From assembly GCA_029556545.1 (NCBI GenBank), contig JAKQEQ010000067.1:1-58616 (forward strand): 58,616 nt of DNA, in the 5' to 3' direction. This document shows, piece after piece, positions 6,687-29,527 of this stretch. Each line of letters opens with the position of its first letter. Position 1 is the first letter of the stretch. Below the pieces are notes generated by a model. It saw only the letters and a list, made by a program, of their open reading frames with translations, was not told the DNA's origin and ran no database searches. The DNA is from Candidatus Hydrogenedentota bacterium. GTDB lineage: Bacteria; Hydrogenedentota; Hydrogenedentia; Hydrogenedentales; JAGMZX01. The position numbers and the translations under genes were made by a program.

Positions 6687-6767
6687 GCTGCTCCTTTGCG
6701 TTATGCAGATGGTCTTCAGACTGCCTGCCAGGCAAGCTGAAGCTTGTATTGCGAACCTATGCCCCGG

Positions 6768-7430: not shown

Positions 7431-7755
7431 GGCGTTCTCTCCCACTTTTCGTCCGTCTCGCGTCGGTCCGCTTGTTCCGGATCCCGGCCGCGCGGACGAC
7501 ATGCTCATCGTATCATACGCGCGCGCTGCGGTGATCATGGGCCGAAGACACGCATGGGACCAAGCGCGCCGCCGCGTCGGATGGGGCCGAAAGCCGTCAC
7601 TTGAAAGATCAGCCGTTTTTCGCCCATAATGCCGCCGCTTTCCGCCGTGTTTCCAGACTAACCGAGGGGACACGTGCATGGTTTCGCGCCGCGCGCGCGT
7701 GTGGTCCGCGACACGCCCCCCGGGGCGTTCCCGCAAACAGAAATCGGAGGCCGCG

Positions 7756-9450: not shown

Positions 9451-9481
9451 CGCCGAGGTAACCATCCCCCTTCCCCTCGGG

Positions 9482-9517
9482 GATCTGTCCGATCTGTCCG
9501 ATCTGTCCGATCTGCCC
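9482..9517. repeat. 9-bp tandem repeat
   Basis: GATCTGTCC is repeated three times and followed by a partial fourth copy, directly downstream of glnS. It is a short intergenic microsatellite. Confidence 0.9.
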
Positions 9518-9544
9518 TTCCCCTCTCACTCGGGGAGAGGGAAG
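9517..9544. terminator. Hairpin between convergent genes, possible terminator
   Basis: CTTCCCCTCTC at 9517-9527 pairs with GAGAGGGAAG at 9535-9544 with one bulged base. It lies between the stop of glnS and the stop of the convergent gene at 9548. There is no strong T tract on either side. Confidence 0.4.
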
Positions 9545-9547
9545 CGC

Positions 9548-10462
9548 TCATTCGATCTCACTGACCACGTTCATGTCCATGACCATGTCCATCTTCTGGC
9601 CGAGTTGCTCCATCGTCATGCGCATGATCGAGTCGACGTTGCTCTTCACGAGATTGCCGCGCGCCGCGTCGAAGAGAATCCAGCCCTTATACTCCTCCAT
9701 CTTCATATCCATCACGGCGACGGCGCCCTCCTTCGGCTTGAACGTCACGGTAACCAAAGGATCGAGCAACACCTGCGTCTCGTCGCCCGAGACCGCGCGG
9801 ACCTTGTACCGCAGGTCGAGCACCATGTCCCCCATGTCCGGAACGCTCTGTGTGACTGTGCCGCCTTCATAGGTTTCACCCGCTTTCACGGGCTCTTCCG
9901 GCAAGGCAATAAAGGCGTTCTTCATCATCTGGTTCATCTGCTCGATCATCGGTTCGGCCTGCGGATCGACCCCTGCGACGCCCGCAGTGAGTTCCGCCGT
10001 ATCGAACGTGACTATTTCGCCGCGCGGCGACATGGCCGCGGTCATGCGCTTGTCCACCATCGCGGCCAACGGTTTGAATTGCGGCTGCGACGGCGCGGCG
10101 TCGGTCTTTGAATCATAGGCAAGCGGCGTTCCCATCATCTCCATCTTCATCGCGACGCGGCCAATGCGCATCTCCAGTTGATAGTTGCCGCTGTCATCCA
10201 CGCCGGACACCTTGCACATCATCTCCATGTTCATTTCCATGGGCGCTTCCATCTTCATCCCGCCCATGTCCATCTTCATCGTCATGGTCATCGCGATACG
10301 GCCGACAAATTCGTCCCCTTTCGCGTACTTATAGCGCAATAGCACCGGAGCGTCGCTTGTGGACTCGAAGGTCGGGGCCTCAAGCGCCGACGCGATGGGA
10401 AGGACCGCGCAGACAAGAAGCAGGACAAGACGCATCGTTTGAATAGTGACGCCACGGTTCAT
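9548..10462 (-). CDS. Secreted methionine-rich protein, DUF6263-like
   Basis: A 304-residue protein with an N-terminal signal peptide (RLVLLLVCAVLPIASA). The mature part is rich in Met and Lys in a repeated strand pattern (MTMTMKMDMGG, MEMNMEMM, and a similar MVMDMNVVSEIE at the C-terminus) and contains LRYKYAKGDEFVGRI and GETYEGGTVTQSVPD. The overall pattern resembles the DUF6263 type of beta-rich envelope proteins, but I am not sure of that. The start at 10462 was chosen for the GAGGAG site seven bases upstream. Function unknown. Confidence 0.6.
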   Translation of the reverse strand: MNRGVTIQTMRLVLLLVCAVLPIASALEAPTFESTSDAPVLLRYKYAKGDEFVGRIAMTMTMKMDMGGMKMEAPMEMNMEMMCKVSGVDDSGNYQLEMRIGRVAMKMEMMGTPLAYDSKTDAAPSQPQFKPLAAMVDKRMTAAMSPRGEIVTFDTAELTAGVAGVDPQAEPMIEQMNQMMKNAFIALPEEPVKAGETYEGGTVTQSVPDMGDMVLDLRYKVRAVSGDETQVLLDPLVTVTFKPKEGAVAVMDMKMEEYKGWILFDAARGNLVKSNVDSIMRMTMEQLGQKMDMVMDMNVVSEIE

Positions 10463-10557
10463 AAGGAGTCTCCTCAAGTTCTGTCAGGTTAGACCTCATA
10501 TTCCGTTTGCCGCATTCCCGATGTCGCGGGAACGACTAAAATGCCGACCGCGAATGC

Positions 10558-11877
10558 TCAAATCAGCGCCAGCGGATTCGTATAGACCCACGGCGTCCAC
10601 TCGCCAAGAATTTCGAGTTCCGCCTCGACGCGGTACTTGCCGGGTTCTTCCGGCTGCCACGACATGCTGGTCCCGACCTGTTGCCGCACCGGCTCGCCGT
10701 GGCGAAGGATGGTGAAGCGGCAGCGGTGCGGCGCCGCGACGCGCAGCGTGATTTCCGGGCTGAACGCCAGCCGCTCGCCCATAACCGCGCGTTCGTCGCC
10801 CGCCTCCGCCAGAAACGTAAAGCCGGTGCTGTCCGCAATCATGTCGAACGCGACGTAGACCCGGCCCGCTCTTAGCGCGTCAAGCACGCTTTCCTTCGAC
10901 AACTCGTTCGCGAGAATGTGGGTGCTCACGTAGCGCACCATCCGCTCGTACGGATCGAGCTGGAAGCGGAACAATTCCCGATTCGCCTCGAGGGGACCGA
11001 ACAGCAGACGCAGCAACAGCCACGTCGCCGGATTCAAGGCAATCGTCTTTACGTCTGCCGGGCTGGTGTCCCGAATGAGGAGTTCCCCGTTTTCGGTGTA
11101 GATGAGAACGATACCGTTGTTCTGGTGACAGTCGTTGGCGGCGATGCCGACTATCTTGCGGGTCCTGTTCAATTCGTCCCAGTTCTCAAGAATAGCAGTC
11201 TGCCGGTCGAATAGGAGACGAAATGTCTGGTCGGGGTATGCGCCCAGATTCAGCAGCAGGTCCGGGGCGAGTTTTCCAACACTCTCGTCTTTGAAATCCG
11301 TATGAATGTTGTAGATTTCCATGCCGACAAGCTGGGGCAGGTCCCACCGCCGCTCTTCCTCCGTGTGCGCGAAGAACAGCATCCCGCCCAGTTCCTCGAT
11401 CTGCCGCGCGAGAACCTCGACGTCTTCGCCGCAATCCAGCACCGTCTCCCGAGGAAGTCCCCAGGGCATGAACCCGTGAGACATCTCGAATCCCGGCACG
11501 AACACGATGCCGTCGTGGGTCCCGTTCCACTGAAGCGAATAATCCGCCTTGCCGTCGACGCAATGGTCCGACATGCAGATGAAATCGCGGCCCGTGTCCT
11601 TGAGCACCCGCAGGATTTCCTCGAAAGGGACATTGCAGTCGTGCGAGAACTCGGAGTGACTGTGGCATACTCCGCGATAGTCGCGCCATCCGTCGTCGAG
11701 GGTTACCTCGATACGGTCCGCACGAATGGCCTCCCATGCGCGGGCTTCGCGCGGGAACTGGACGAAGCGGTTGTAGAGCGCGCCCCGTAAGAACACGCCG
11801 GCGGCAATGATCACGAGGATTACGACCAACAGTATGAGCCGGACGCACCAACGCAAGACGAATCGAATCTTCCGCAT
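10558..11877 (-). CDS. Membrane-anchored PHP-domain phosphoesterase-like protein
   Basis: A 439-residue protein with one N-terminal membrane helix (residues 10-32), then a PHP (polymerase and histidinol phosphatase) domain. Metal-binding candidates are H72 and H74 in GVCHSHSEFSHD, D104 and H105 in CMSDHC, a later FFAHTEEE and ANDCHQN. The C-terminal 100 residues are beta-rich and look like an Ig-like or carbohydrate-binding accessory domain. PHP proteins hydrolyse phosphate esters with a trinuclear metal site; the substrate is unknown. The domain should face the periplasm or outside given the N-terminal anchor. Confidence 0.7.
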   Translation of the reverse strand: MRKIRFVLRWCVRLILLVVILVIIAAGVFLRGALYNRFVQFPREARAWEAIRADRIEVTLDDGWRDYRGVCHSHSEFSHDCNVPFEEILRVLKDTGRDFICMSDHCVDGKADYSLQWNGTHDGIVFVPGFEMSHGFMPWGLPRETVLDCGEDVEVLARQIEELGGMLFFAHTEEERRWDLPQLVGMEIYNIHTDFKDESVGKLAPDLLLNLGAYPDQTFRLLFDRQTAILENWDELNRTRKIVGIAANDCHQNNGIVLIYTENGELLIRDTSPADVKTIALNPATWLLLRLLFGPLEANRELFRFQLDPYERMVRYVSTHILANELSKESVLDALRAGRVYVAFDMIADSTGFTFLAEAGDERAVMGERLAFSPEITLRVAAPHRCRFTILRHGEPVRQQVGTSMSWQPEEPGKYRVEAELEILGEWTPWVYTNPLALI

Positions 11878-12059
11878 AAAAAAGTGTCCTTACCACGTGG
11901 CGGTTACGTATTCGAGAGAAGCGCCGCGGAGAGCCACCCAAGCGTCCCACCAAACGAACCATCTTCCTCGGGCAACGCGCCCACAAGTGCTCGAACTTGC
12001 AGGAACCATACTGCAAACACGGCGGAGATTCCAATCATGCCCCCGCAATCACGCCCGGA

Positions 12060-12548
12060 CTATCGGCGTTGCCCGACAACTTGGAGGATCGCTGCGCACA
12101 GGGCCTCCGGCGTCTCGGAACCGATGATGTAGGGTTTCCCGGCGGTTTCGAGGAAGACCCCCCGGCGCCCGCGCGCATTCAAGAACCGGCAGGGCTTGCC
12201 CTCGAAACGCCCGAAGCGAATGCCCCAGCCGCCCGCGTTGCGGAGGGGCCGGTATTCGACACATCGCGCCGCGCGGATATCCTCTATCGGGAATCGCTTG
12301 CGGTAATAGGTGAAGAATACGCCGAAACGCACGGTCAGGGCGTCGCGCGCGACCTCGGTGGTCATGCCGAGCACGTTTGCCCCGAAGACCGCCCCCGCCA
12401 GCCAGGCACACCCGGCAAGGATCGGTCCGAGCGTCAGTCCCTCTACAAGAAGGGCCGGCAAGAGGGCGCATCCGGCGCCGCCCATAGCGACGGCTATTCC
12501 GACGTACGCCAGCCAGTGGAAACGCTGTGTCTCGGTATAGAATGGCAC
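12060..12548 (-). CDS. Small membrane protein with PH-like domain
   Basis: A 162-residue protein with two N-terminal hydrophobic segments (about residues 14-60) followed by a soluble part with LTVRFGVFFTYYRKRFPIEDIRAARCVEY, the strand-turn-strand start of bacterial PH-like domains. It also has VFLETAGKPYIIGSETPEALCAAI, the typical last strand and helix. The start is a GTG with AGGAG about 12 bases upstream. Such proteins are widespread and poorly characterised. Confidence 0.6.
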   Translation of the reverse strand: MPFYTETQRFHWLAYVGIAVAMGGAGCALLPALLVEGLTLGPILAGCAWLAGAVFGANVLGMTTEVARDALTVRFGVFFTYYRKRFPIEDIRAARCVEYRPLRNAGGWGIRFGRFEGKPCRFLNARGRRGVFLETAGKPYIIGSETPEALCAAILQVVGQRR

Positions 12549-12677
12549 TCTTGAGCGAGGCTCCTGATGCCTATCAATACACCCGCCGAGTCCGATTATT
12601 CGCTACGAGACGGGACTTTCACTCGAAGGCTCGACCGTCCGCGATTTCCCCACGATGTACGCGGCACAACAGGTGCG

Positions 12678-14375
12678 CTACGGCTGACTCGGTTGACCCA
12701 GCATATTCATGTCGCCCTGCTGCAGCACCAGTCCCACGATGTTGTTGATCAGGTCCAGGTCGCCCGAGGCGAGGATGGCGTTGTAGGTCTCGATGTAGGA
12801 GCGCAGGTCGGTGAAGGCCTGGGCCAGCAAGGCGAAACTCTGCATCAACGCGTTGATGGTTTCCGGGTCGCCGAGTACATTGTACAGACCCTGTAGACTC
12901 CCGAGGGCTTCGTGCTGAATCTCGAGCCCCGCCAGGTGCTCGTTGATATAGTTGCCGCCAGCGACCACGTCCTCGCCGAACTGCCGCACCGCGCCGTAGA
13001 TCGTTTCCGCCGTCGCATAGTCGCCGATGGACTCGTAATACCGACCGGCGTCCAGCAGCTTCGTCGCCAGGTCGCGCATCTGGAGATATTCGTCCGCGCC
13101 CGCGGTGGCGGCGGCCAGGAGGCGCGCCTCGTTCGCGCCGTAGCCGGCGGCCATGAGGGCTTGTGCGCGTTGACTGGCGGTCTGCGAGACATAGCCGTAG
13201 GCCTGCCCAAAGCCCGCGGACTGTTCGAAGGCCAGCAGGGCGGCCTGAATATCCGCTTCGCGCAGCGCCAGTTCCGCCTCCATCAGATACGGCATGGCGT
13301 TGTTCGGGTCCGTGCGGCGCCATTCGGCCAACTGCCGCCGCGCCTCGTCGGCCCCGCCCTCGATGCCGCTGAGGCTTTTCGCCAGCGCATAGCGAAGATA
13401 CGGGTCGTTCGGCGCCTGGCTCAGCTTCGCCAGCAACAGATTGACCGCCTCCTCGGGCGGTAGAAACAGCACCGCGCCGAGCACCGCCTCGATGGATAAC
13501 CCGGCCTGTTCGACCAGCCGCCGCGCTTCTTCAGGCGACAGGCCCGCAAGTCTGGCCAGAAGTGCGCGATCCGCTTCCGTGCCGTTAATGGCGTTGGCTC
13601 GGGCCAGGAGGATGCTCTCCAGCGTGATGTCGTCGTAAGAATTCGATGGGGGCGCTTCCTCGTCCGGCGCGTCCGGGGCGTCGATGGCGGCGCTGGGCGG
13701 TGAAATCGGACCGGGCCGAACCGGAGCGATGCTTCCGTCCGCGGCCGGCGTCCCACTCGAGGCCGACGGGCCTCCCGCTACCGCAGGGTCCGTCGAGCGC
13801 GCAACAACGGGGCCTTCCGTGGCCGTGTCGGGCGGCAGCAACCATCGGGCGCCAAGCCACGATGCGAACAACAGGCACGCCGCGGCAGCCAAAGCAAGAC
13901 TGGCCGAAAGGACGGGACGACGACCGCGCCCCGGCCTCGCCGCGCGCGGCCGTAACTTGACGACATTGCCCTTCGCCCGTTCCGCGGCGACCGCCGCCAT
14001 CACCGCATCCTCAATATCCACGCGGGGCGCGGATCCGGCGAAGCGTTCCCCGAGGGCCACGAGATCGGCCCGCAGCATCACGTCCTCGGTCAAGTCGACC
14101 TCCGGAACCCCGGCGGCGGACGCCTCGCCCGCCGCTTCGAGGTCCACGCAAAGCATGACATCCTCGACCAAGTCGATTTCCGGGGTCCGCGCCGCGAGGG
14201 CTTCGCCAATCCCATCGAGTTCGCCCGCCAACGCCTTCAGTTCCGCGTACGCTTCCCAGGCCGATTCGGACGCACGAAGGCGCGCCTCGAGCGCGTCCGC
14301 TGCGGCGGCCTCCAACCCGCCGCCGAGCAGCGTCTCGATATCCTCGCGGTAATTCTCGTCCGAATGTCCGTTCAC
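12678..14375 (-). CDS. Putative membrane anti-sigma factor with helical-repeat C-terminus
   Basis: A 565-residue protein that starts with a GTG overlapping the sigma factor stop codon (GTGA), so it is translationally coupled to it. The N-terminal 140 residues are acidic and cytoplasmic, with three similar DxxEDVMLxxDL-type repeats. A membrane helix follows near residues 150-170 (ASLALAAAACLLFASWLGARWLL). After a Pro/Ala-rich linker comes a long TPR-like helical region (about 270-480). The gene order matches ECF sigma and anti-sigma pairs, and the repeats near the N-terminus could bind the sigma factor, but no zinc-binding anti-sigma motif (HxxxCxxC) is visible. The role is inferred from context. 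Confidence 0.55.
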   Translation of the reverse strand: MNGHSDENYREDIETLLGGGLEAAAADALEARLRASESAWEAYAELKALAGELDGIGEALAARTPEIDLVEDVMLCVDLEAAGEASAAGVPEVDLTEDVMLRADLVALGERFAGSAPRVDIEDAVMAAVAAERAKGNVVKLRPRAARPGRGRRPVLSASLALAAAACLLFASWLGARWLLPPDTATEGPVVARSTDPAVAGGPSASSGTPAADGSIAPVRPGPISPPSAAIDAPDAPDEEAPPSNSYDDITLESILLARANAINGTEADRALLARLAGLSPEEARRLVEQAGLSIEAVLGAVLFLPPEEAVNLLLAKLSQAPNDPYLRYALAKSLSGIEGGADEARRQLAEWRRTDPNNAMPYLMEAELALREADIQAALLAFEQSAGFGQAYGYVSQTASQRAQALMAAGYGANEARLLAAATAGADEYLQMRDLATKLLDAGRYYESIGDYATAETIYGAVRQFGEDVVAGGNYINEHLAGLEIQHEALGSLQGLYNVLGDPETINALMQSFALLAQAFTDLRSYIETYNAILASGDLDLINNIVGLVLQQGDMNMLGQPSQP

Positions 14376-14962
14376 GTCACTTCTCGCAGGTGCGCGCACT
14401 CGTCGCGCAATTGTCGGAGAATGCGGTGTAATCGGGTCCGCACCGCGCCCTCCGTGCTCTCTATGATTTCGGCGATATCCCGAGCGGGCAAGCGCTCGAA
14501 AAACCGCAATTTCACTATCTCTTGCGCCTCATCCGGCAGCCGATCCAGCGTTTCCAGCAGGAGCCGCCGCCGTTCCGACGCCATCAGCAATTCCGCCGGA
14601 CCGTCCAGCGGGGACGCCGCCAGTTCCCCGGATTCCTCCCGGGCGGAACTGGCGTATTCTTCGAGGGTTTCCATGCCCACGGTCTTCTTGCGCTTCAACT
14701 CGTTCAGGCAGAGATTACGCGCAATACACAACATCCAGGGCTTGAACCTGCGGGTGACGTCAAATCGATGCCGCGCCGTATAAATCCGCAGGAACGTTTC
14801 CTGCGCCGATTCCTTCGCCTCCTCCACGTTTTTCAGGTAGTGGAGACAGAACCGGAACACGTCGTTTTGATACCGCCGCACCAAGTCCGCCAGCGCATGG
14901 TCCATGCCCTGACTGAGCAGGCCCATAAGCTCCTCGTCGGTCCGTTCTTCTACTGTGCCCAT
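14372..14962 (-). CDS. ECF-type RNA polymerase sigma factor
   Basis: A 196-residue sigma-70 family protein with only regions 2 and 4. Region 2 shows ALADLVRRYQNDVFRFCLHYLKN, AKESAQETFLRIY and FKPWMLCIARNLCLNELKRKK. Region 4 shows LDRLPDEAQEIVKLRFFERLPARDIAEII then TEGAVRTRLHRILRQL, the helix-turn-helix that reads the -35 element. Start chosen at the ATG at 14962; an in-frame TTG lies further upstream. It is immediately followed by its probable membrane partner gene. Confidence 0.88.
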   Translation of the reverse strand: MGTVEERTDEELMGLLSQGMDHALADLVRRYQNDVFRFCLHYLKNVEEAKESAQETFLRIYTARHRFDVTRRFKPWMLCIARNLCLNELKRKKTVGMETLEEYASSAREESGELAASPLDGPAELLMASERRRLLLETLDRLPDEAQEIVKLRFFERLPARDIAEIIESTEGAVRTRLHRILRQLRDECAHLREVT

Positions 14963-19075: not shown

Positions 19076-19215
19076 TCAAGCCATTCCCGGACAGAACCCG
19101 TCTTCCGTGGCATCACCCGGACAATAATGACAGCCGCCGGAGTTGAAGAACTGGATGACCCGCAGGAGTTCCGTCAAGACGATCTTCCAGTCCGGCCCGG
19201 AAGGCAATACTCCCC
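19076..19215 (-). pseudogene. Truncated dockerin-like C-terminus of a surface protein
   Basis: The minus strand carries the end of a reading frame with PSGPDWKIVLTELLRVIQFF, a NSGGCHYCPGD stretch and a final EDGFCPGMA before a stop. This matches the two C-terminal modules of the protein at 37406-40450. Upstream of the module the frame has no continuing homology and runs into the phage-like element. The rest of the host gene is not seen on the far side of the element, so this is a remnant. Confidence 0.7.
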
Positions 19216-19276
19216 CACACCGACGATCACGCACCTTGCCGAGCCAAGTTACCGCACCCCAACAACTTACCGCCAC

Positions 19277-19303
19277 TTGAAAAAAAAAAAAATGGTGTAC
19301 ACT
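19277..19303 (+). promoter_or_regulatory. Weak promoter candidate at the left end of the phage-like element
   Basis: TTGAAA at 19277-19282 and TACACT at 19298-19303 are separated by 15 bases, mostly a run of A. The spacing is short, but this is the only promoter-like pair before the first gene of the element. Confidence 0.3.
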
Positions 19304-19339
19304 GGAGAGTAGATTAGGGACAATATGGAGGGATTACCA

Positions 19340-19729
19340 ATGTCCAATCGCAAACGCTACGCCCGACCAGAAGACATCAAGTACCTACTCTTCCCAACCG
19401 ACTGGTTTGACTACCACTCTGACCCAACCACACACCCCACTTACCACGACGAACTAGAACAGAACCTCGCCGCACACCGAAGACGACTCGCCCTCCTCGT
19501 CTACCTGCAGTTTTGGGCCGCAACCCTCCTCACCGACTGCGAACGCCGCGCCATACTCTCACACTACTTCGAGGCCCTTGCCCTCAGAACAATCGCCCAA
19601 CACGACGGAAAACAGCCATCCAGCGTCATGCGCGCATGCCGCCGTGCCGAGCGCAAGCTCCGCCAACAAGCACGCCACGACGACATGTTCCCACTCGCCC
19701 GCACCCTTGGCTACGGATCCTACTCGTAG
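19340..19729 (+). CDS. Sigma-70 region-4-like DNA-binding protein of the phage-like element
   Basis: A 129-residue basic protein. Its C-terminal half (LTDCERRAILSHYFEALALRT, then IAQHDGKQPSSVMRACRRAERKL) has the layout of sigma-factor region 4: a helix, a conserved ERRAI turn and a helix-turn-helix. Region 2 is absent, so it cannot be a complete sigma factor. It could be a phage regulator of the ArpU/late-gene type. The start at 19340 is preferred over the ATG at 19325 because GGAGGG lies in between at the right distance. Confidence 0.55.
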   Translation: MSNRKRYARPEDIKYLLFPTDWFDYHSDPTTHPTYHDELEQNLAAHRRRLALLVYLQFWAATLLTDCERRAILSHYFEALALRTIAQHDGKQPSSVMRACRRAERKLRQQARHDDMFPLARTLGYGSYS

Positions 19730-19762
19730 CCTCACACCCCCACACACTACGAGTGTCACCCT

Positions 19763-19870
19763 ATGGCCATTCTATGCCCAATCGCCAAATTCTTCGGCTT
19801 CGCCGCCCTTTGGGTCGCCGCCCTCATTTTTCACCACCTTGTCAAACGCCTGAGGTCCCGACGAATGTAG
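19763..19870 (+). CDS. Possible 35-residue single-pass membrane peptide
   Basis: A short frame with a hydrophobic stretch (FFGFAALWVAALIF) followed by a basic tail (KRLRSRRM). It could be a small holin-like or membrane peptide of the element, given the lysin gene further on. There is no clear ribosome binding site, so the call is tentative. Confidence 0.3.
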   Translation: MAILCPIAKFFGFAALWVAALIFHHLVKRLRSRRM

Positions 19871-19912
19871 GCCCGAGTGCAACACACCACCCTATAAAGG
19901 TGGAGACCACTC

Positions 19913-20722
19913 ATGCAAACTCTCTACACCAAAGGCCACGCCCGCGTCGGCATACTCCTCGACGACGAGGACGCCGAACGCCTGAAACCCCACCGCCTCT
20001 ACTTCTACCCCAAAAAGTCCCGCTACCCCATCGTCCGACTGCGCAATAGGCGCACCATTTCCGTCCACCGCTTCGTACTCAACCTCCCCTACCGCGACGG
20101 CAAAACCGTCGACCACCGCAACCATGATCCCCTCGACAACCGCAAGGCCAACCTCCGAATCTGCACCGCATCCCTCAACCTCCTGAACATGCGCAAACAC
20201 TCCGACCGCCCCATCGGCGTATCCCCCGACCGCAACGCCTATCAGACCCAATTCAGTTCCAACAACTTCGACCTCAGGCTACGCTTCCAAGACCCCACTC
20301 TTGCAGCCATCGCCTACGACACCGCAAAACGCGCACTCGGTATCCCCGAACTCTCCTACAACTTCCCCACCCTCGCCGGTGAAACCCTCGCAACCAATCA
20401 CGGCCTCCCCCGCCAACGCTGCGAACGCATAGCCAAAGCCTACACCCCCCTATGGCGCATCTTCGCATCCCAGCCCCCCTATGCCAAGCGTCGCGCAACA
20501 TGGCGCCTCCACTACTACACCATCACCCTCGACCCCGAAGCCCAACGCCTCGAAATCCGATTCAAAGCACGCCTTCTCGGCGTCGGCGGCATGCCCAACG
20601 ACCACGACGACATAGCCTGGCCCCACAGACCCGACGCCGCACGATGGTGGCACATCGTCGACAAGCTCCACGCCGGTCTCCGCCCCCGTCGCGTCAAAAA
20701 CCCCGAAAGGAACAACCCGTGA
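19913..20722 (+). CDS. HNH endonuclease with AP2-like DNA-binding domain
   Basis: A 269-residue protein. The HNH_3-type nuclease motif spans residues 52-83: H52 in SVHRFV, the DHRNHDPLDNRKANLR core with D67, H68 and N76, followed by a LNLLNM helix. Residues 98-150 form an AP2-like domain (IGVSPDRNAYQTQF, then AAIAYDTAKRALG). This is the classic layout of phage-borne homing-type endonucleases. The last 115 residues are unlike the usual family and end in a basic tail. The start follows GGTGGAGA. Phages often use such enzymes near the terminase to process packaged DNA or to spread. Confidence 0.8.
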   Translation: MQTLYTKGHARVGILLDDEDAERLKPHRLYFYPKKSRYPIVRLRNRRTISVHRFVLNLPYRDGKTVDHRNHDPLDNRKANLRICTASLNLLNMRKHSDRPIGVSPDRNAYQTQFSSNNFDLRLRFQDPTLAAIAYDTAKRALGIPELSYNFPTLAGETLATNHGLPRQRCERIAKAYTPLWRIFASQPPYAKRRATWRLHYYTITLDPEAQRLEIRFKARLLGVGGMPNDHDDIAWPHRPDAARWWHIVDKLHAGLRPRRVKNPERNNP

Positions 20723-20862
20723 AAACACTCCAAATCCCCTTGTCCGAGTCGAACTGGCAGCAAATACAGCGCCTTGCCGCCGTCACCGGCGTCGACCCGC
20801 TTCACTACGCGATCACCGTCCTTATCCGACACCTTGAAACCACCACCCGACACTGGAACTAA
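20719..20862 (+). CDS. Small hypothetical protein, possible short DNA-binding or ribbon protein
   Basis: A 47-residue frame with GTG start overlapping the HNH stop (GTGA), with AAAGGA upstream. It reads KTLQIPLSESNWQQIQRLA and continues with a helical segment, a pattern like small ribbon-helix-helix repressors (a strand, then two helices). The call rests on pattern only. Confidence 0.45.
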   Translation: MKTLQIPLSESNWQQIQRLAAVTGVDPLHYAITVLIRHLETTTRHWN

Positions 20863-20876
20863 GGAATCACCAACCC

Positions 20877-21401
20877 ATGATCAATATCCTCGAATTCCTC
20901 AAGCGACTCATCGGAATCAACACCCTACCCGACATCGCCCTCACCTTCCACGCCTCGTTCGGCGACCGCCTCGTCAACGGCTCCAAGCGCGAAACCGCCG
21001 TCGCTCTCCTCGTCGAAGACCTGACCGCCCATTATGCGATTATTGCGGACCTGTATTTGCGGAAGCCGTCTCTGGACGGGGATACCAAGCTTCAGAGCGG
21101 TTGGCTCGATGACATGCTGAAGGCGCGGCAGCGCACACGAGAAATCCTCAAGATATTCCTCGACCTCGACGACCCCGACGCACTCAAGGCCGTCGACCTC
21201 GCAGCCGTCTATCAGTACCTTTCCGAACTTGCCCCGGACCCGCGCGACAAGGCCCACTTCTACCGCAGACGCCGCAAAGACGCCCGGCAGCCCGAACCCG
21301 CCGCACTCCCCACCCAAGCCCGCACCGACGATCAGGCCGTGCAAGACCTGCTCCCTGATGTACAGGAAAGGGAGCCGTCTCTGGACCTTAACCACTACTA
21401 G
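20877..21401 (+). CDS. Hypothetical protein of the phage-like element
   Basis: A 174-residue protein with two predicted helical regions (residues 30-60 and 78-120) and a basic, disordered C-terminal third. The start at 20877 follows AAGGA. No family is recognised. The DNA between about 21040 and 21130 is richer in G than the rest of the element, and a 14-base sequence (AGCCGTCTCTGGAC) occurs twice in the gene, at about 21065 and 21373. Both points suggest patchwork sequence. Confidence 0.55.
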   Translation: MINILEFLKRLIGINTLPDIALTFHASFGDRLVNGSKRETAVALLVEDLTAHYAIIADLYLRKPSLDGDTKLQSGWLDDMLKARQRTREILKIFLDLDDPDALKAVDLAAVYQYLSELAPDPRDKAHFYRRRRKDARQPEPAALPTQARTDDQAVQDLLPDVQEREPSLDLNHY

Positions 21402-21413
21402 GAGCAACCACCA

Positions 21414-21713
21414 ATGCGAGCAATCGAAGCCATCATGGGACAAGGCAAAAACATGGGCGACATCAAGCCCGAACACGCCTGCTACGACCTGCCCCCCAAA
21501 AAACGCACCCCAAAATACCTCACCCGCGAATTCTTCCAACTCCCCCGCGTCGAGGCCATGCTCAACACCCTCATTTCCGTCATCAAGGAAATCGACCAAT
21601 GGCACCTCGAACACACAACCAACGAGGAAAACCCCCGAGGCATCCACTGCAAGCAACTTGAAGACCTCATCAAGCAAATCCGACGCATCCGATCCCACGC
21701 AGGACGAAATTGA
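21414..21713 (+). CDS. Hypothetical 99-residue protein of the phage-like element
   Basis: A small protein, with a moderately charged N-terminal half and two helices at residues 46-66 and 79-95 (QLPRVEAMLNTLISVIKEID and KQLEDLIKQIRRIRS). AGGAG precedes the start at 21414. It sits directly before the replication initiator gene, with the stop close to the next start. No family recognised. Confidence 0.5.
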   Translation: MRAIEAIMGQGKNMGDIKPEHACYDLPPKKRTPKYLTREFFQLPRVEAMLNTLISVIKEIDQWHLEHTTNEENPRGIHCKQLEDLIKQIRRIRSHAGRN

Positions 21714-21715
21714 CC

Positions 21716-22635
21716 ATGGCCACACACATGATCTACCGCACCGTCTCACCAACAATCTGGAACAGTCCCACGTTCCACTACCTGCTTCACCACGAGCAGG
21801 TTACCATGCTCTGCCTCCTCACCCACAGCCAGCTGAAAAGGTTCGGACTTCTCTCCATATTCCCCGACGAACTCGGCCACATCACCCGCCAAACCAAGAA
21901 TCAAGTCCTCGGCGTCCTCGCTACCCTCGAACGCCACCGTATCATCGAATGGGACCCCAAGGCCCCCATGGTCGCCTTCCCCAAGTACTTCCGCTACAAC
22001 GCCATCGAGACCATCAGCGAACTCGCCCTTGCTGCCCGTCAACTCCCGCTCCTACCCAAGTCCACTGTCCGCGACCGCCAGACAGACCGCTTCGTCGCCC
22101 ACATCAACACCAGACCCCCAAAAATCAGAAATGCCGCCAAGCGCATCTTCCCCGACTTGCCAATCATGAGTGCAACACCTCTCCGCACTCCTACACGCGC
22201 ACACGCGGGCCCGCCCGCGTCTGTCTCTGTCTCTGATCCTGTTTCTGATCCTGTCCCTGTCTCCAAGACCTACGAACTCGGTGGCCCCGGCGACGAAGCA
22301 AGCGTCGACGGCGCCATCACCCGGCACCGCCCCCTCCACTCCGATGACTACCTCCAGGCCTTCTGGGCCGCATACCCCAGAAAGCAGCAGCACATGAAAG
22401 CCGCCCAAGCCTGGACCAAGCTCAACCCCGACACCGACACCGCACTCGCTATCCTCGACGCCGTCACCGCATGGGCGCGCTCACGACAGTGGCGCACCCA
22501 AAACGGTCGCTTCATCCCCCTTGCCCACAACTTCCTGCTCAACCACGTTTGGGAAGACGACCCCGGACCCCCGACAACATCGCCGAATCCAACAACCCCG
22601 ACCAAACCCCCGACCCCAACAAGCCCACATTCTAA
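21716..22635 (+). CDS. Phage replication initiator-like protein (apparent frameshift near 22561)
   Basis: The N-terminal part contains a winged-helix-like segment (LLSIFPDELGHITRQTKNQVLGVLATLERHRIIEWDPKAPMVAFPKYF). The C-terminal segment, AFWAAYPRKQQHMKAAQAW followed by RFIPLAHNFLLNHVWEDD, is the signature of DnaT/O-like replication proteins that recruit the host helicase. The open frame does not stop but runs on to 23689 through two other genes. After the CCCC run at 22561-22564 the plus-one frame gives a natural-looking tail PRTPDNIAESNNPDQTPDPN ending KPTF and a TAA at 22633-22635, 20 bases before the next start. A missing C there, real or from sequencing, is the simplest explanation. The start is ATG at 21716 with AGGA upstream. 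Confidence 0.7.
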
Positions 22636-22655
22636 CCTCAGGAGAAACCAATACC

Positions 22656-23192
22656 ATGGCCTTGCCCGATATGCCATCCACATTCACAACCCGGGAAACC
22701 CTCCGCATCGGCGGCGGCTACAACGCCCCAGAAGAGGGCATTTCGCCAGCCGGAGGCCTCGATATCGACGGAACCGGAAATCTCGCCACAAACGGCGACG
22801 TCACCATCGACGGCGACCTCAGCGCCGCAAACATCGCCGCCGGCCAGTGGGCCCCCACCTGCACCAACGTCGCCAACTGCGACAGCTTCGCAAACCAGAT
22901 CGGCTACTACCACCGCATCGGCACCTGGGTCGTCTTCTCCCTCTACGTCGCCGTCACCCCAACCGCCGCAAGCACCGCCACCTCCTTCCGCTTCTCGCTC
23001 CCCATCCCCTCAAACTTCGCCAGCACGCGACAAATGCACGCCGCCGGAGCATTCCGAAGGGCCACCGAATACAACGCCGTCTTCTGCGACGCCGACACCA
23101 CCAACGACGAGGGCATCGTCCAATTCGTCACCGCCGCCAGCACCAGCACTCACGCCGTCCACCTCACCGGCTTCTACGCCATCATCGCCTAA
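22656..23192 (+). CDS. Phage tail-fibre or receptor-binding-like protein
   Basis: A 178-residue protein. The N-terminal part is Gly/Asp-rich (IDGTGNLATNGDVTIDGDLSA), the type of repeat seen in phage fibres, and the C-terminal 125 residues match a common phage domain: WAPTCTNVANCDS, then YHRIGTWVVFSLYVAVTPT, FSLPIPSNFASTRQ and a final ATEYNAVFC-type strand. Such domains sit at the tips of tail fibres or spikes and bind host surfaces. AGGAG lies 12 bases before the ATG. The family assignment comes from recalled patterns, not a search. Confidence 0.6.
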   Translation: MALPDMPSTFTTRETLRIGGGYNAPEEGISPAGGLDIDGTGNLATNGDVTIDGDLSAANIAAGQWAPTCTNVANCDSFANQIGYYHRIGTWVVFSLYVAVTPTAASTATSFRFSLPIPSNFASTRQMHAAGAFRRATEYNAVFCDADTTNDEGIVQFVTAASTSTHAVHLTGFYAIIA

Positions 23193-23201
23193 GGAGACCC
23201 C

Positions 23202-23618
23202 ATGGCTACCTACGCAACCGAAGAAGACGTCCGACTCTGGCTACAGGCCACCGACAACGTCCAGGTCACCAGCGACCTCATCACAGCCGCCTTGAACGCC
23301 GCGCACGGCCTCATACTCGACCGACTCGCCGACGCCGCCTTCGCAGGCGACCCGCCCATCCCCCTCGTACTCGGCGAGGCCACGCTCGCCGGGGCCTTCG
23401 CCCTCCGCGCTCTCGCCCGCAAGCAGGCCCTCGACCAGATGGACTTCACCATCGGCGGACAGCGCATCAAAAACACCGACCGATTCCACTACCTCATGCA
23501 AGCCGCCAACGAAGCCGAAGAAGCCGCGTGGGCTACCCTGGCCCCCCTGCTCCGCGCCGTCAAACACGTAGCCCCCCTGGGCGTAACCGACTCCGTACCA
23601 GTACTAGGACAGGAGTAA
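23202..23618 (+). CDS. Phage head-tail connector-like protein
   Basis: A 138-residue mainly helical protein that opens MATYATEEDVRLWLQATDNV and continues with a helix-rich core (LNAAHGLILDRLADAA, LAGAFALRALARKQAL), like gp6-type head-completion/connector proteins of siphophages. Preceded by AAGGAG. The lack of a capsid and portal gene nearby is odd for such a gene, so the assignment remains tentative. Confidence 0.4.
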   Translation: MATYATEEDVRLWLQATDNVQVTSDLITAALNAAHGLILDRLADAAFAGDPPIPLVLGEATLAGAFALRALARKQALDQMDFTIGGQRIKNTDRFHYLMQAANEAEEAAWATLAPLLRAVKHVAPLGVTDSVPVLGQE

Positions 23619-23622
23619 CCCT

Positions 23623-24753
23623 ATGCCGCCAGATACCCGATCAGCCAAATGCGCCAAGTGCAACGCCGCCATTGCCGTCCCCATCATGACCGGCATTGTC
23701 GCCCGACTCAACACCGCGCACGCCGTTTGCGACCAATGCGCCCAGGCCCTCGACCGCGCCGTAAGGCTAAGGGCCTTGAAGAATGACATGCAGGACCGAC
23801 GACGAAACCTTACCCGACTCGGACTCCTCTCCCACGCAACCAATCACGACCCCTACTGCTTTTTCGACCACCCAGGAGCCATCGCACGCGCCGAAGCCGA
23901 GAACGCCCACCACTGGGAAGCCCTCGACAACGGTCTCCAGACCCGAAACGCCTTCTTCTGGGGTCCCCCAGGTTCCGGAAAGTCCACGCTCGCCCGCGCT
24001 GTCATCAACCGCGCCCTCGACAACAACCTCACAGCGGCGGAAATCTCCGCCCGAGCCTTCATCAAAACCGCACGCGCTTTTTCCGAAATGCGCACCATGA
24101 CCCTGCTCTTTACCGCCAAAATCCTCCTTCTCGACGACATCGACAAGGCCGAATGGCAGCAGCCCGACGCACTGCCCGCCCTTTGGGAGCTTTTCGACCG
24201 AAGACAGCACCTCCAGACCCTCGTTACTTCCAATCTCAGGCCCCAAATGCTCGTCGCACTCATCCGCGACGCCGCACCGACCAACACAAGCACCGTCGAA
24301 GCCGCTTTTGACCGTTTCAGCCAGTCTTGCTCCTATCTCGAATGCTCCCAAGCCAATTTCCGCGCAAAATCGCAACAATCCGTCGTTCTGCCCGCTCGAA
24401 ACGCCAAAGGAAACGAAAAACCATGCAAAACCCCTTCTACTCCGTCAGGCACGCCCGAAACGCGCTCAAACGCGCCAATCTCGACCACGCAGCCGCTACC
24501 CTCTACCTCGCGCTCTCGGACATCCTCACTTTCGCACTCCGATTCATCCGAAACGCCGACGGCTCCCAGTTCATCCCGCACAACTACCAGATTCCTTCCC
24601 TTTGCTCCACAGCCGTCAGGAAGTGTCACTGCGACGGCCGCGACGTCGGCAAGACCACCGAAATCCTCACAACCGCCCTCTTTCTCGCCGTCACCCGCCC
24701 CCACAAGCAAACACTCCTTGCTTGCCCGTTTCAAGCACATGTTGAAGCCTTGA
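23623..24753 (+). CDS. DnaC-like helicase loader ATPase with zinc finger (overlong frame)
   Basis: The N-terminal part holds a CxxC-x22-CxxC zinc finger (C10, C13, C36, C39). The AAA+ core follows: Walker A GPPGSGKS at 114-121, Walker B ILLLDDID at 167-174, sensor 1 TLVTSNLRP near 199-207 and an AFDRF arginine-finger segment near 228-232. This is the layout of the DnaC/DnaI-type loaders that place the replicative helicase at the origin. The protein should end near residue 250-266. The frame continues as a Ser/Pro/Thr-rich stretch overlapping the terminase gene by 331 bases, most likely because C-rich DNA lacks stop codons. Confidence 0.72.
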   Translation: MPPDTRSAKCAKCNAAIAVPIMTGIVARLNTAHAVCDQCAQALDRAVRLRALKNDMQDRRRNLTRLGLLSHATNHDPYCFFDHPGAIARAEAENAHHWEALDNGLQTRNAFFWGPPGSGKSTLARAVINRALDNNLTAAEISARAFIKTARAFSEMRTMTLLFTAKILLLDDIDKAEWQQPDALPALWELFDRRQHLQTLVTSNLRPQMLVALIRDAAPTNTSTVEAAFDRFSQSCSYLECSQANFRAKSQQSVVLPARNAKGNEKPCKTPSTPSGTPETRSNAPISTTQPLPSTSRSRTSSLSHSDSSETPTAPSSSRTTTRFLPFAPQPSGSVTATAATSARPPKSSQPPSFSPSPAPTSKHSLLARFKHMLKP

Positions 24754-25916
24754 CACCAAGGCTCAATCAACTCCTCGAATTGCCCTGGTTCAAGCGCGCT
24801 ATCGCTTCCGACAGGAAAGCGCCGCACCGAATCGTCACCTTCACCAACGGACACATGCTCCACATCAGGCACGCCGGGTATCAGGGCGTCAACTTCCAGG
24901 GAATGCACGTCGATGCGCATCTCGTCGACGAGGCAGCCGAAATGACCGAAAAGCAGTGGAGAAACCTTGCCCAGTCCCTGAATGAGCCGGGAATCCGCTT
25001 CGTTTACGGCGTTCCGAACGGCCTGCTTTCTACCTTTTATCGGATTTCGCATGACCCCGGTTACGAACAATACAACTGGCCCTCTACCCTCAACCCCGCT
25101 TTCACCCCCGAGAAAAAGGCCGAACTCGAAGTCCTCTACGGAGGCCTCGACAGCCCCGGTTTCGTCCACAACGTCCTCGGAAAGCACGGAAGACCCCTCC
25201 ATGCCGTCTTCAGCCTCGACTTGCCGTGCTGGAAGCACCCCAACATCAGCCCCCACAACCTCGGAACCCATGACTTCATCCCCAATTCCCCCGATCCCAT
25301 CAACGCTTGGCCCGAATCCCCCGAAAATTACCCCTGCTACATCGGCGCGGACCTCGGTTTCGCCCAGGACCCCTCAATCTTCACCGTCTACCACGAAATC
25401 GACGGTACCCTCGTCAATTTCCTCAATATCGGCCTGTCCCACGTGCCCTATCCCGTACAGCAGTCCATCCTCATCGCCCTCATCAACAACTACTCCCCCG
25501 AAGTCATCGCTATCGACGCCGGTCACAGCGGCCTTGCCGTCGGCCAGGCTTTGTCCGCTACCCAGCCCGATATCGCCGACAAAATCGAGCTCGTCAACTT
25601 CGCCTCAGCCGTTATCTGGGACAATCATGGCCGCGCACTCCCCGTCAAGCGTCAGGTCAAGGAACTCCTTACCGAAATCCTCCTTCGCCATATGCACGAC
25701 GGAACCATCCTCTTCAACAACGAGCCTGAGCGCTTTCGACAGTACGCAAAGCACACCTTCGCCTATTCGCCCTCCGGTCGTATCATCTATTCCAAGGGCG
25801 ATGACCATATCATCGACGCCGACAGGCTCGCGGTCTATGCCTATCACCGCGCCGCTCTCAGGCCCATCCCCGAAACCCCACACGGTATCGCCGTCGGCTT
25901 CTTCGACGCCGCATAA
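24423..25916 (+). CDS. Large terminase (DNA packaging ATPase-nuclease)
   Basis: A 497-residue packaging motor. The N-terminal ATPase has a Walker A GRDVGKTT at 72-79 and a Walker B HLVDEAAEM with D169 and E170. The C-terminal RNase H-like nuclease has D310 in CYIGADLGFAQDPS, D365 in VIAIDAGHSG and a final acidic cluster KGDDHIIDADRLA at 458-470. All core motifs seem intact. It starts at the ATG at 24423 behind AAAGGA. No small terminase or portal gene is next to it, which is unusual for a complete phage. Confidence 0.85.
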   Translation: MQNPFYSVRHARNALKRANLDHAAATLYLALSDILTFALRFIRNADGSQFIPHNYQIPSLCSTAVRKCHCDGRDVGKTTEILTTALFLAVTRPHKQTLLACPFQAHVEALTPRLNQLLELPWFKRAIASDRKAPHRIVTFTNGHMLHIRHAGYQGVNFQGMHVDAHLVDEAAEMTEKQWRNLAQSLNEPGIRFVYGVPNGLLSTFYRISHDPGYEQYNWPSTLNPAFTPEKKAELEVLYGGLDSPGFVHNVLGKHGRPLHAVFSLDLPCWKHPNISPHNLGTHDFIPNSPDPINAWPESPENYPCYIGADLGFAQDPSIFTVYHEIDGTLVNFLNIGLSHVPYPVQQSILIALINNYSPEVIAIDAGHSGLAVGQALSATQPDIADKIELVNFASAVIWDNHGRALPVKRQVKELLTEILLRHMHDGTILFNNEPERFRQYAKHTFAYSPSGRIIYSKGDDHIIDADRLAVYAYHRAALRPIPETPHGIAVGFFDAA

Positions 25917-25938
25917 CACCACGAAAGGACACCACATC

Positions 25939-26295
25939 ATGAACATCACCCTTCGCCCCAACTTCTCAACCTGGGAATTCCGTTGCCGATGCGGTTGCGG
26001 CCTCTTCATCCGACCCCCCGAACCCTTGCTCGATGCCCTACAAGCCGCCCGAAACATCTTCGGACCCGTCTTCATCAATTCCGGTACCCGATGCCCCTTC
26101 CATAACCGAATGGTCGGAGGCGAGAAATTCTCCATGCACCTCCTCGGATCCGCCGCAGATATCACCGTCCCCGGCGTCCCGATTGCCGACATCGCCGCAT
26201 GGTTCACCGGTTGGAGCGGCGGTCTCGGCGTCTACCCGTCCCGAGGCTTCATCCACATCGACGCCGGACCGAACCGCCGATTCGGCGAAAAATAG
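25939..26295 (+). CDS. M15-family peptidase, probable endolysin
   Basis: A 118-residue peptidase of the M15A (PF08291) type, a zinc D-Ala or L-Ala-D-Glu peptidase that cuts peptidoglycan cross-links. Zinc-ligand candidates are H67 and D74 in SMHLLGSAADI and H106 in GFIHIDAGPNRRFG, with an NSGTRCPFHN turn earlier. It has no signal peptide, as expected for an endolysin that leaves via a holin. Preceded by AAAGGA and lies directly downstream of the terminase gene. Confidence 0.85.
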   Translation: MNITLRPNFSTWEFRCRCGCGLFIRPPEPLLDALQAARNIFGPVFINSGTRCPFHNRMVGGEKFSMHLLGSAADITVPGVPIADIAAWFTGWSGGLGVYPSRGFIHIDAGPNRRFGEK

Positions 26296-26718
26296 CCCAT
26301 CCCCCGGGGTCGCGCTGCGCCTTGGTCTACCACGGGTTGCCAAGAACGGGCGCGGCCCCGTCCCCTGTTTCGCCCCTTCAGGGCTTGAATCCCAATCCCC
26401 CCCTCTCCCAGGGCCTTGCCCTGGGCTATCCTCTTACGGGCCTTCGGCCCTCTTCACCACTTCACCGCCGCCAACATCCTACGATGCCCTACACCGTGCC
26501 CGCCCCTGTCTTCCGCTGTCCTACCCCTACCCGCCCCCCTCTCGCGCGTTAGTCCCGCCCCCGAGGCCCTCCAATCCCCCCTGTCATCCCGCCACTCGCA
26601 GTCCTCTTTTGCACTCTAACCGCATTTTGATTTACGATGCGTCCGCAACAGGCCCGCGGGCGCGGTAGTCCATAGCGGGTCTGAAATCATCATTCCGCGT
26701 ATCTCGGAGGAATCTCGC
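26296..26718. other. Non-coding right end of the phage-like element with hairpins
   Basis: No gene is seen in these 423 bases. Three GC-rich palindromes are clear: GCCC-CTTCA-GGGC at 26372-26384, CCCAGGGC-CTT-GCCCTGGG at 26407-26425, and GGGCC-TTC-GGCCC at 26438-26450 (followed by TCTT), possibly terminators at the end of the element operon. The C bias fades near 26600-26640, and host composition returns before the cupin gene. The GGAGGA site for the cupin gene lies at about 26707. Confidence 0.5.
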
Positions 26719-27090
26719 ATGGCCGTCTACAGGCAATGGAAACCAATTCATTTCACGCCGGAGACCCCGGTGGAAAAGCACTTCCACGATTATGACGAAA
26801 CTTGGGTTATTTCGGACGGGCGCTGTCGCGCGTTCATGGTCGATCACGACGGCAATCGGCACGAGTTCGAGCTTCAGGCGGGCGACATCTGGATGGTCGA
26901 GGCGGGCGTCGAGCACGGCTGCGACCCCTATGAAGAGGGCGTGGACATTTTCCCCTTCGCGGGCACCATCCCCGAGGGTTCCCACGCGCCCGGACGGCAT
27001 TACTACATGGAACAGGAAGGCTACATCCCGCGGCTGGTCGTCACGAAAACGCCGACCGACCGCTACGCGAAGGACGCCGCCCATGCGTAA
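26719..27090 (+). CDS. Cupin-domain protein
   Basis: A 123-residue single-domain cupin. The first cupin motif is seen as KHFHDYDETWVISDGRCR, and the second as GDIWMVEAGVEHGCDPYEEG. The metal ligands fit the usual H-x-H ... E ... H pattern. Preceded by GGAGGAA. The last bases overlap the start of the dehydrogenase gene, so the two are co-translated. Cupins of this kind near dehydrogenases often act on sugar acids or polyols; the substrate is not known. Confidence 0.75.
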   Translation: MAVYRQWKPIHFTPETPVEKHFHDYDETWVISDGRCRAFMVDHDGNRHEFELQAGDIWMVEAGVEHGCDPYEEGVDIFPFAGTIPEGSHAPGRHYYMEQEGYIPRLVVTKTPTDRYAKDAAHA

Positions 27091-28321: not shown

Positions 28322-28435
28322 GAAGACCGATGCCCCCCACCCGCGCGCTTCTGGACCGCGCGCCGTAGCCTTTGCTAGACTCCGGCTCCGCCGCGTGTGA
28401 CGCGCGGTGTCGCACATGATTCGGGGACTCCGGCC

Positions 28436-29527
28436 ATGCCCATCGTCGATTTCGCGCGGTATTGCGCCATGCTCGACAGCGCGCTCGAGGGGCGCTACGC
28501 CTATCCCGCCGTGAACGTGTTGCAGATGGACACGCTCAACGCGGCCATCGAAGGCTTCGCGGCGGCGCGGAGCGACGGCATCATCCAAATTTCCGTCGCG
28601 GCGGGCGTGTGCGCCTCCGGCAAGGCCGCCGACCCGGTGCTCGGCGCGATTTCGCTGGCGGAACATGCGCACCGTATCGCCGCCAAGCATGACGTGGGGA
28701 TCGCGGTCCATTCGGACCATTGCCCCACCCAGAAAGTGGATTCGTTTCTCAGGCCGCTTATCGCGGAGACGGCCCGGCGCCGCGCCCGCGGCGAAGCGAA
28801 CCTGTTTCAGAGCCACATGTACGACGGCAGCGCGCTGCCCCTGAAGGAGAACCTGCGTCGCTCGGTCGAGTTGCTGCAGTTGTGCCGCGAGAACGACCTC
28901 ATTCTGGAAGTCGAGGCGGGCGTGGTCGGCGGCGAGGAGGACGGTATTCGAGGCGCGGTTCAAGTACCCGCGCTAACGAGTGGGAGACCTTCGGTCGGCG
29001 CGGTGGCGCGGCCGGGAGACCGGCCACAACGCGAAAGACTCTATACGACGCCGGAAGACATGCTCGATGTCTATGAGACGCTCAGCGCCGTCGAGGGGGC
29101 GCGGTTCCTGCTCGCGGCGACCTTCGGCAACGTGCACGGCGTCTACAAGCCGGGGCGGGTTCAATTGCGCCCCGCGATACTCAAGGCAGGACAGGACGCA
29201 GTCATGGCGAAGCACGGCCCGCGGGCGCGGATGCACTTGGTCTTCCACGGCGGATCGGGGACCCCCGAGGCCGAGATCCGCGAGACCATCGAGTACGGCG
29301 TCGTAAAGATGAACATACACACCGATACGCAATACGCTTTCACGCGCGCCGTGGCCGACTTCATGTTCAAGCACTACGACGGCGTTCTGCGCATCGACGG
29401 CGAGGTCGGCGTGAAACAACAGTATCTCGCAAGCACGTGGCTCGAAGCGGGCCGCGACGCCATGGCCGCGCGCGTCGTCGAGGCGTGCCGGATTCTTGGA
29501 AGCGCTGGAAGGTCGATGGGTCAATGA
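28436..29527 (+). CDS. Class II fructose-bisphosphate-type aldolase (IolJ/FbaA-like)
   Basis: A 363-residue zinc-dependent class II aldolase. The zinc His region VHSDHCPTQK, the LEVEAGVVGGEEDG glutamate segment, AATFGNVHGVYKPG and FHGGSGTPEAEIRETIEYGVVKMNIHTDTQ are all clear. In inositol clusters IolJ, a member of this family, cleaves 2-deoxy-5-keto-D-gluconate-6-phosphate, so this is a plausible role given iolB and iolC downstream. Between the EEDG segment and the LYTTPEDM segment the spacing is about 21 residues longer than in FbaA; the added DNA holds a perfect palindrome. The start is at 28436, with a weak ribosome binding site. Confidence 0.82.
   Translation: MPIVDFARYCAMLDSALEGRYAYPAVNVLQMDTLNAAIEGFAAARSDGIIQISVAAGVCASGKAADPVLGAISLAEHAHRIAAKHDVGIAVHSDHCPTQKVDSFLRPLIAETARRRARGEANLFQSHMYDGSALPLKENLRRSVELLQLCRENDLILEVEAGVVGGEEDGIRGAVQVPALTSGRPSVGAVARPGDRPQRERLYTTPEDMLDVYETLSAVEGARFLLAATFGNVHGVYKPGRVQLRPAILKAGQDAVMAKHGPRARMHLVFHGGSGTPEAEIRETIEYGVVKMNIHTDTQYAFTRAVADFMFKHYDGVLRIDGEVGVKQQYLASTWLEAGRDAMAARVVEACRILGSAGRSMGQ
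28975..29030. repeat. Palindromic insertion inside the aldolase gene
   Basis: GGCCGG-GAGA-CCGGCC at 29010-29025 is a perfect stem-loop. With neighbouring GGGAGACCTTCGGTC it forms the part of the coding sequence that has no counterpart in relatives. It keeps the reading frame open. Confidence 0.5.

Follow-up and report, generated by a model that had tools for sequence, protein, structure and literature searches.

Introduction

Known phage satellites parasitise phages. Most satellites of the P4 and phage-inducible chromosomal island (PICI) type carry an integrase and rely on the large terminase (TerL) of their helper, and capsid-forming PICIs (cfPICIs) have their own terminase plus portal and capsid genes. 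The P4-like satellite AH14b carries an integrase (PMC4936722). The Streptomyces satellite phages Mulch and Flayer come with encapsidation machinery and are without key replication genes (PMC10690885). Here we describe a compact block of about 7 kb, at 19.3-26.3 kb of a Hydrogenedentota contig (C66, 58,616 bases, the whole of which is called the window), that encodes a packaging motor, a head-region protein, a fibre-like protein, and replication and lysis genes, and in which no portal or capsid gene is recognisable. We consider it, with a probability of roughly 0.4, to be a mobile, satellite-like, self-replicating element with a motor of its own and a borrowed shell, plausibly the gene transfer agent (GTA)-like one of its host.

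The window belongs to a 6.1 Mb genome in 195 contigs (G000, the own genome). Comparisons were made within a phylum set of 68 genomes, of which 38 are called good (completeness >=90% and contamination <=5%) and only one, G001, is a same-genus comparison genome. Two candidate shell providers lie in the own genome: a GTA-like cluster on contig C61, and a fragment with a prophage-type TerL and a portal on C119.

Results

The block carries a complete large terminase and no recognisable shell gene

All main genes of the block are close-packed on the plus strand in the open reading frame (ORF) map, as a preliminary description of the window had stated. They lie between a DegT/epimerase gene that ends at 19049 and a cupin/dehydrogenase cluster that begins at 26719, in the following order (the 35-aa peptide is not counted among the main genes):

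19340..19729, plus strand: small sigma-factor-like or helix-turn-helix (HTH) protein, 129 aa (phrog_3512 sigma factor, 9e-5; HTH_38, 4.5e-4, under the curated cut-off)
19763..19870, plus strand: possible 35-aa single-membrane-span peptide, MAILCPIAKFFGFAALWVAALIFHHLVKRLRSRRM (read from its letters)
19913..20722, plus strand: HNH endonuclease (HNH_3), 269 aa (phrog_99, 4e-19; PF13392, 2e-6)
20719..20862, plus strand: 47-aa protein with a weak ParD or ribbon-helix-helix likeness (phrog_5333, 0.008; ParD, 0.1)
20877..21401, plus strand: 174-aa protein, very weakly like the c1 family, a candidate small terminase (TerS) family (c1 profile, 8.1 bits in a database of 6 sequences; hhalign probability 45%)
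21414..21713, plus strand: 99-aa protein with no convincing Pfam or PHROG family match
21716..22635, plus strand: replication initiator (phrog_9474, 3e-16; phrog_270, 8e-16; 44% identical to a homologue on contig C75)
22656..23192, plus strand: fibre-like protein, 178 aa (minor tail protein match; k10 N-terminal motif)
23202..23618, plus strand: 138-aa k5 protein, homologue of the gene right after the major capsid gene in the GTA-like cluster of the host
23623..24420, plus strand: DnaC/IstB-like helicase loader (PF00004, 4e-9; PF01695, 5e-6; phrog_50, 2e-15)
24423..25916, plus strand: TerL, 497 aa (phrog_2, 4e-18; ATPase and nuclease motifs intact)
25939..26295, plus strand: M15 peptidase, endolysin-like, with the motif SMHLLGSAADI ... 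FIHID (PF08291, 1e-18; phrog_894, 3e-29)

The large terminase is complete, as had been proposed: the Walker A (GRDVGKT) and Walker B (LVDEA) motifs and the aspartates of the nuclease are present, these sites are invariant or nearly so among its relatives, and the family profile matches solved TerLs at 2e-8. Pfam or PHROG matches likewise support the M15 peptidase, the DnaC-like loader, the initiator and the HNH nuclease. Among the element proteins, Pfam and PHROG gave no better-than-chance match to a portal, capsid, tape measure or integrase, in agreement with the preliminary description; several of the small proteins match no family at all. The fibre call fared less well: residues 61-176 of the 178-aa protein align over 116 aa with a minor tail protein of a Stenotrophomonas phage (33% identity, E = 0.01), which, together with an N-terminal motif considered below, weakly suggests a fibre from the sequence. 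Strong ribosome-binding sites had been ascribed to all the genes; a purine-rich site shortly 5' of the start was read in 10 of the 11 main genes, the exception being the initiator. The gene borders, which had looked intact, are not all so: near 22570, in a run of C, the initiator is shifted by one base relative to its C75 homologue, the C-terminus of which (DNIAESN...) lies here in another frame, and the DnaC-like frame has no stop codon ahead of terL.

Homologues of the HNH protein were found on contig C75 of the own genome (37%), adjoining an initiator, and in a block of another genome (L087; 34.5%). Initiator homologues were found within the own genome; none turned up in the other 67 phylum genomes. 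Repeats inside initiator genes were considered as origins and were suggestive in two of four, unconvincing as a whole. An exact GAGTGCAACAC occurs at 19875-19885 of the window, 5' of the HNH gene, and at 22168-22178, within the initiator; the corresponding position of the C75 initiator holds it too (L068, 11696-11706). It is possibly a binding site, or else a coincidence at the protein level.

The 138-aa protein is homologous to a protein of a phylum-wide virion-like cluster

The preliminary description had left the 138-aa protein (k5) unnamed. Its best match is the copy on C61 of the own genome (50% identity, E 6e-37), and it stands beside the copies of the host family in an unrooted tree (88/93). 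Homologues of k5 are present in 40 of the 68 genomes, nearly always one each besides the window copy, and the layout was read in the regions around 18 of these 40. In these 18 regions k5 belongs to a conserved cluster of about 8.6 kb, with homologous loci at L237-L253; the own copy (G000:C61, L236, about 6230-14827, minus strand) and its homologues comprise:

Portal, C61 cluster (phrog_3753, 5e-46; Portal_Mu)
Protease-like protein, an interpretive reading (phrog_16951, of unknown function)
LigD-3'-phosphoesterase-like protein (a weak likeness)
Decoration-like protein (G001 copy: phrog_4588, 4e-13)
Major capsid protein, C61 cluster (phrog_3922, 3e-49; PF25209; profile matches HK97 gp5 at 1e-3)
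k5, 138-aa family, C61 cluster, right after the major capsid gene
Dit-like tail protein, C61 cluster (phrog_33, 1e-11)
579-aa protein with a weak SNase domain, 173-aa protein and possible holin

From its position, k5 could be guessed to be a connector. As a candidate by structure it was not retained: its AlphaFold2 (AF2) four-helix model (pLDDT 80) has no significant match in the PDB (HK97 TerS, E = 0.86), and the k5 profile compared with a phage head-tail adaptor profile gave a negative result. Some clusters carry an extra fibre (k10) or peptidase-like protein (k15), and the own C61 cluster is without fibre and M15 genes. The N-terminus of the window fibre matches that of the k10 fibres with 36.8 bits, compared with a maximum of 9.1 in 1000 shuffles; the motif might be more general. 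The k15 peptidase, tried as a relative of the window M15 protein, shows no similarity to it.

A capsid match was found in 52 of the 68 genomes (34 of the 38 good ones), one per genome save two genomes with split fragments, and identity to the own copy is 71-88% in 14 other genomes. Between G000 and G001, dN/dS is 0.14 for the capsid, 0.16 for the portal and 0.11 for the chromosomal TerL described below (type A); the cluster and this TerL are thus under purifying selection. Both the C61 cluster and the TerL on contig C142 are homologous to tailed-phage virion proteins, and an IMG/VR scan with short peptide seeds found no relative of the GTA-like capsid. As judged from its genes, this split virion-like set would fit a GTA distributed over several loci by published criteria (PMC9662315). 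No publication linking 'gene transfer agent' with 'Hydrogenedentes' was found among the papers searched, and the conserved cluster is apparently an undescribed GTA-like gene set.

The window TerL belongs to a small clade beside the chromosomal TerLs

A TerL homologue is present in 57 of the 68 genomes, and in 37 of the 38 good ones. Most of these are of type A, usually one per genome, chromosomal, and mostly 58-74% identical to the own C142 copy (82% in G001). The own type A cassette has the order c1, 3D-domain protein, TerL (G000:C142:28042-30636; L004:9043-11640); at type A loci, the small helical c1 protein usually precedes TerL (34 of 45) and a 3D-domain protein often does (19 of 45). The AF2 model of c1 (pLDDT 83), examined for a TerS assignment by structure, has no PDB match below E = 1. 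In one genome (G004:C17:347-1738, L060), a type A TerL lies within a 967-aa frame and looks joined to a domain on its upstream side that bears an HGG motif.

Genes flanking type A TerLs mostly vary between genomes, and no portal or capsid cluster emerged from these flanks. Classical portal (PF04860) and capsid (PF05065) genes were rejected as partners, as they occur in only 3 and 5 of 40 genomes respectively, consistent with scattered prophages. The likely partner genes of the conserved TerL surfaced only through the homologues of the 138-aa protein. TerL distances correlate with those of the capsid (Mantel r = 0.69, p = 0.0002) and of the portal (r = 0.87, p = 0.0002) in 12 genomes. In most genomes TerL and the capsid cluster lie tens of kb from each other or on separate contigs; in G014 TerL is one or two genes away from the cluster, and in distant phages with similar portal and capsid proteins the terminase is adjacent in two of three examined.

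Type B TerLs stand out in only three copies in the 68 genomes, those of the window, L087 and L111. They form a clade (100/96) that is sister to the GTA-like type A TerLs (100/98) and apart from ordinary phage TerLs, in a tree for which the program warns that long branches meet. The two closest relatives of the window TerL are 44% and 40% identical to it and belong to two other Hydrogenedentota genomes. Catalytic residues are preserved over these long branches.

Capsid-less terminase blocks recur in two other genomes

The other two type B TerLs lie in separate compact blocks of 3.7-4 kb between host genes, with the layout HNH, replication gene, small ORFs, TerL:

L087, 7644-11362: HNH with an AP2-like tail, primosomal-type replication protein (phrog_9327, 5e-6), 141-aa and 151-aa ORFs, TerL
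L111, 998-4959: HNH, ORF in the initiator position, two small ORFs, 174-aa c1 homologue, TerL, small ORF

The second ORF of L111 is read as an initiator from its position, and its 174-aa protein is a c1 homologue (34.5 bits in a database of six; hhalign 96%). Neither a portal nor a capsid gene was seen in the retrieved flanks of either block; the window block, L087 and L111 each have an incomplete virion gene set, as satellites do, and none has a shell gene. Capsid-less terminase blocks therefore recur with variable content, and the window block is not a one-off deletion. The gene order sought in other genomes was recovered in part: HNH and TerL are common to the blocks but the rest varies. 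In L087, two direct repeats of 132 bp (98% alike; 6984-7115 and 13645-13776) enclose the block and the genes after it, and the contig ends in the second copy.

Two further loci of the own genome are of note. On C75 (L068:11304-13084, minus strand), a second HNH and initiator pair without terL lies beside murI and is read as a smaller relative or a remnant. The 5-kb contig C119 (L005) carries a phage-type TerL (33%) and a portal (phrog_2739) of which no other example turned up among 40 genomes; it is a prophage fragment and possibly an alternative helper. Scans of IMG/VR, the sensitivity of which was limited by the need for short, nearly exact peptide seeds, gave no close viral relative of TerL, the initiator, the GTA-like capsid or the 138-aa protein, and no full phage with this type of TerL was found in these scans or in the phage collection.

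Composition and borders of the block

GC skew is -0.21 to -0.42 over 19-27 kb and about 0 to -0.15 in the flanks, with a shift at both ends of the block. This strand bias resides mainly in silent third positions: the third-codon-position skew is -0.41 to -0.80 in the element genes, and -0.36 to +0.13 in the host genes of the window; with the own virion-like genes and the chromosomal TerL included, the latter range is -0.36 to +0.16. It marks the block as foreign to the host or lately arrived. The own GTA-like genes and chromosomal TerL do not share this bias, which suggests recent arrival of the block or a different mode of replication.

Two features mark the junctions:

19076..19276, minus strand: left junction, remnant of the C-terminus of a host repeat protein (LTELLRVIQFFNSGGCHYCPGDATEDGFCPG)
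26310..26480, no strand: right junction, copies of an interspersed palindromic repeat of the host (several copies within 208 kb of own sequence)

No convincing short direct or inverted repeats flank the block in the window, and no att sites were found there; the arrangement of PICI and P4-like satellites, with an integrase at one end and att sites, is thus not seen. The flanks resemble G001 (87% protein and 81% DNA identity). In G001 the counterparts of the two flanks are split over two contigs, G001:C29 with the gene on the left and G001:C180 with the cluster on the right; no clean empty site could be read there, and the block coincides with this break of synteny. To the right of the block, at about 28982-29032, a 49-bp stretch inside ORF 28397-29527 is repeated, in near copies, at more than 40 other places in the genome.

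Discussion

A proposed satellite-like element and its rivals

The element has a motor, a head-region protein, a fibre-like protein, replication and lysis genes but no recognisable portal or capsid, which is what a satellite of the GTA-like particle would need. We propose that it would copy itself by means of its own initiator and helicase loader, and that its TerL would thread element DNA into a shell made by others. The most plausible source of this shell would be the GTA-like proteins of the host, with the prophage fragment on C119 as the alternative. The 138-aa and fibre proteins of the element would join the borrowed particle, and a recipient would take up the element DNA by homologous recombination; delivery and recombination of this kind could account for the missing integrase. 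A packaging-competent satellite had been suggested in the preliminary description: the closest TerL relatives do lie in independent capsid-less blocks, but the borrowing of a shell is inferred from gene content and homology.

Several observations weigh against this proposal. No GTA-like capsid gene was detected in one type B host, G060 (1130 contigs, 7% contamination). With 42% identity to the GTA-like TerL of its own host, the window TerL is no nearer to it than to others (38-45%). The 138-aa, fibre and M15 genes are missing from L087 and L111, and among the three blocks known the type of replication protein and the small ORFs differ. The roles of c1 as TerS and of k5 as connector are unproven and rest on position, the AF2 models of both being without significant PDB match. 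Finally, the frameshift in the initiator and the DnaC-like frame without a stop may be signs of mild decay or of an assembly error.

The main rival, close behind and quite possible, is that the block is the remnant of a prophage, from a virus lineage ancestral to the GTA-like set of the host, that lost its capsid, portal and tail genes in place. The order fibre before k5 also occurs in the fibre-bearing GTA-like clusters, as if the genes between them had been deleted; this and the two damaged genes speak for a remnant. Such a remnant is also in keeping with the absence of att sites and integrase and with the two-gene HNH-initiator fragment on C75. Nevertheless, no full phage of this TerL type was found in the phage collection or IMG/VR scans, two further genomes hold differently composed capsid-less blocks, TerL and M15 are intact, and the strand bias has not been ameliorated.

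It is improbable that the block is an unpackaged replicon of phage type, or a plasmid-like element, in which a terminase and a lysis gene have simply been retained: the core common to the blocks is HNH, replication gene and TerL, and the C75 relative is without TerL, but the conserved TerL motifs and the homologue of a virion-cluster protein point to packaging. The preliminary description also allowed for a transfer-agent-like remnant. The host does have a GTA-like set, but this set is on C61 and C142, and the element is separate from it, compositionally foreign, and carries homologues of at least two of its genes. That the block is one of the scattered loci of the GTA-like system of the host, as its homologues of GTA-like genes and its fibre and M15 genes, missing from the C61 cluster, might indicate, is very improbable, given that the other 67 genomes yielded no such initiator, that the strand bias is foreign, and that the own genome already has separate TerL and k5 genes. 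Equally improbable is an assembly or binning artefact joining a stray contig to the host, for although assemblies of this kind may be fallible and the block lies where synteny with G001 breaks, both flanks resemble that genome and two independent assemblies have similar blocks between host genes.

Within the satellite proposal, the stronger claim, that this is the first satellite of a GTA, a selfish replicon that uses its own terminase, 138-aa head-associated protein and fibre to seize the host-made particles of an undescribed phylum-wide GTA-like system, is doubtful. No publication on GTA satellites was found in a literature search. If true, it would be a parasite of a domesticated, host-owned particle; GTAs would have genetic parasites of their own, a point of relevance to the persistence of such particles. 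Apart from this, the conserved terminase and split portal/capsid cluster of the Hydrogenedentota would add a lineage, in an uncultured phylum, to the few known GTA groups.

Comparison with known systems

Compared with GTAs (RcGTA, BaGTA and BhGTA; PMC9662315), the host homologues are GTA-like in being single-copy, chromosomal, scattered over several loci and under purifying selection. The window element differs in its replication genes, its foreign composition and its lack of conservation across the host lineage, and is therefore not the GTA. It resembles phage satellites (P4, the P4-like AH14b, PICIs including the Staphylococcus aureus pathogenicity islands (SaPIs), and PICI-like elements (PLEs)) in having its own replication genes, a small size, no complete virion set and a presumed foreign shell. 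It differs from satellites of the P4 and PICI type in having its own TerL and no integrase, and in that the candidate provider is a chromosomal GTA-like set. With cfPICIs it shares the possession of its own terminase, but their portal and capsid genes are absent from it. Like Mulch and Flayer, it would be a satellite with an unusual gene content, and this content is the reverse of theirs.

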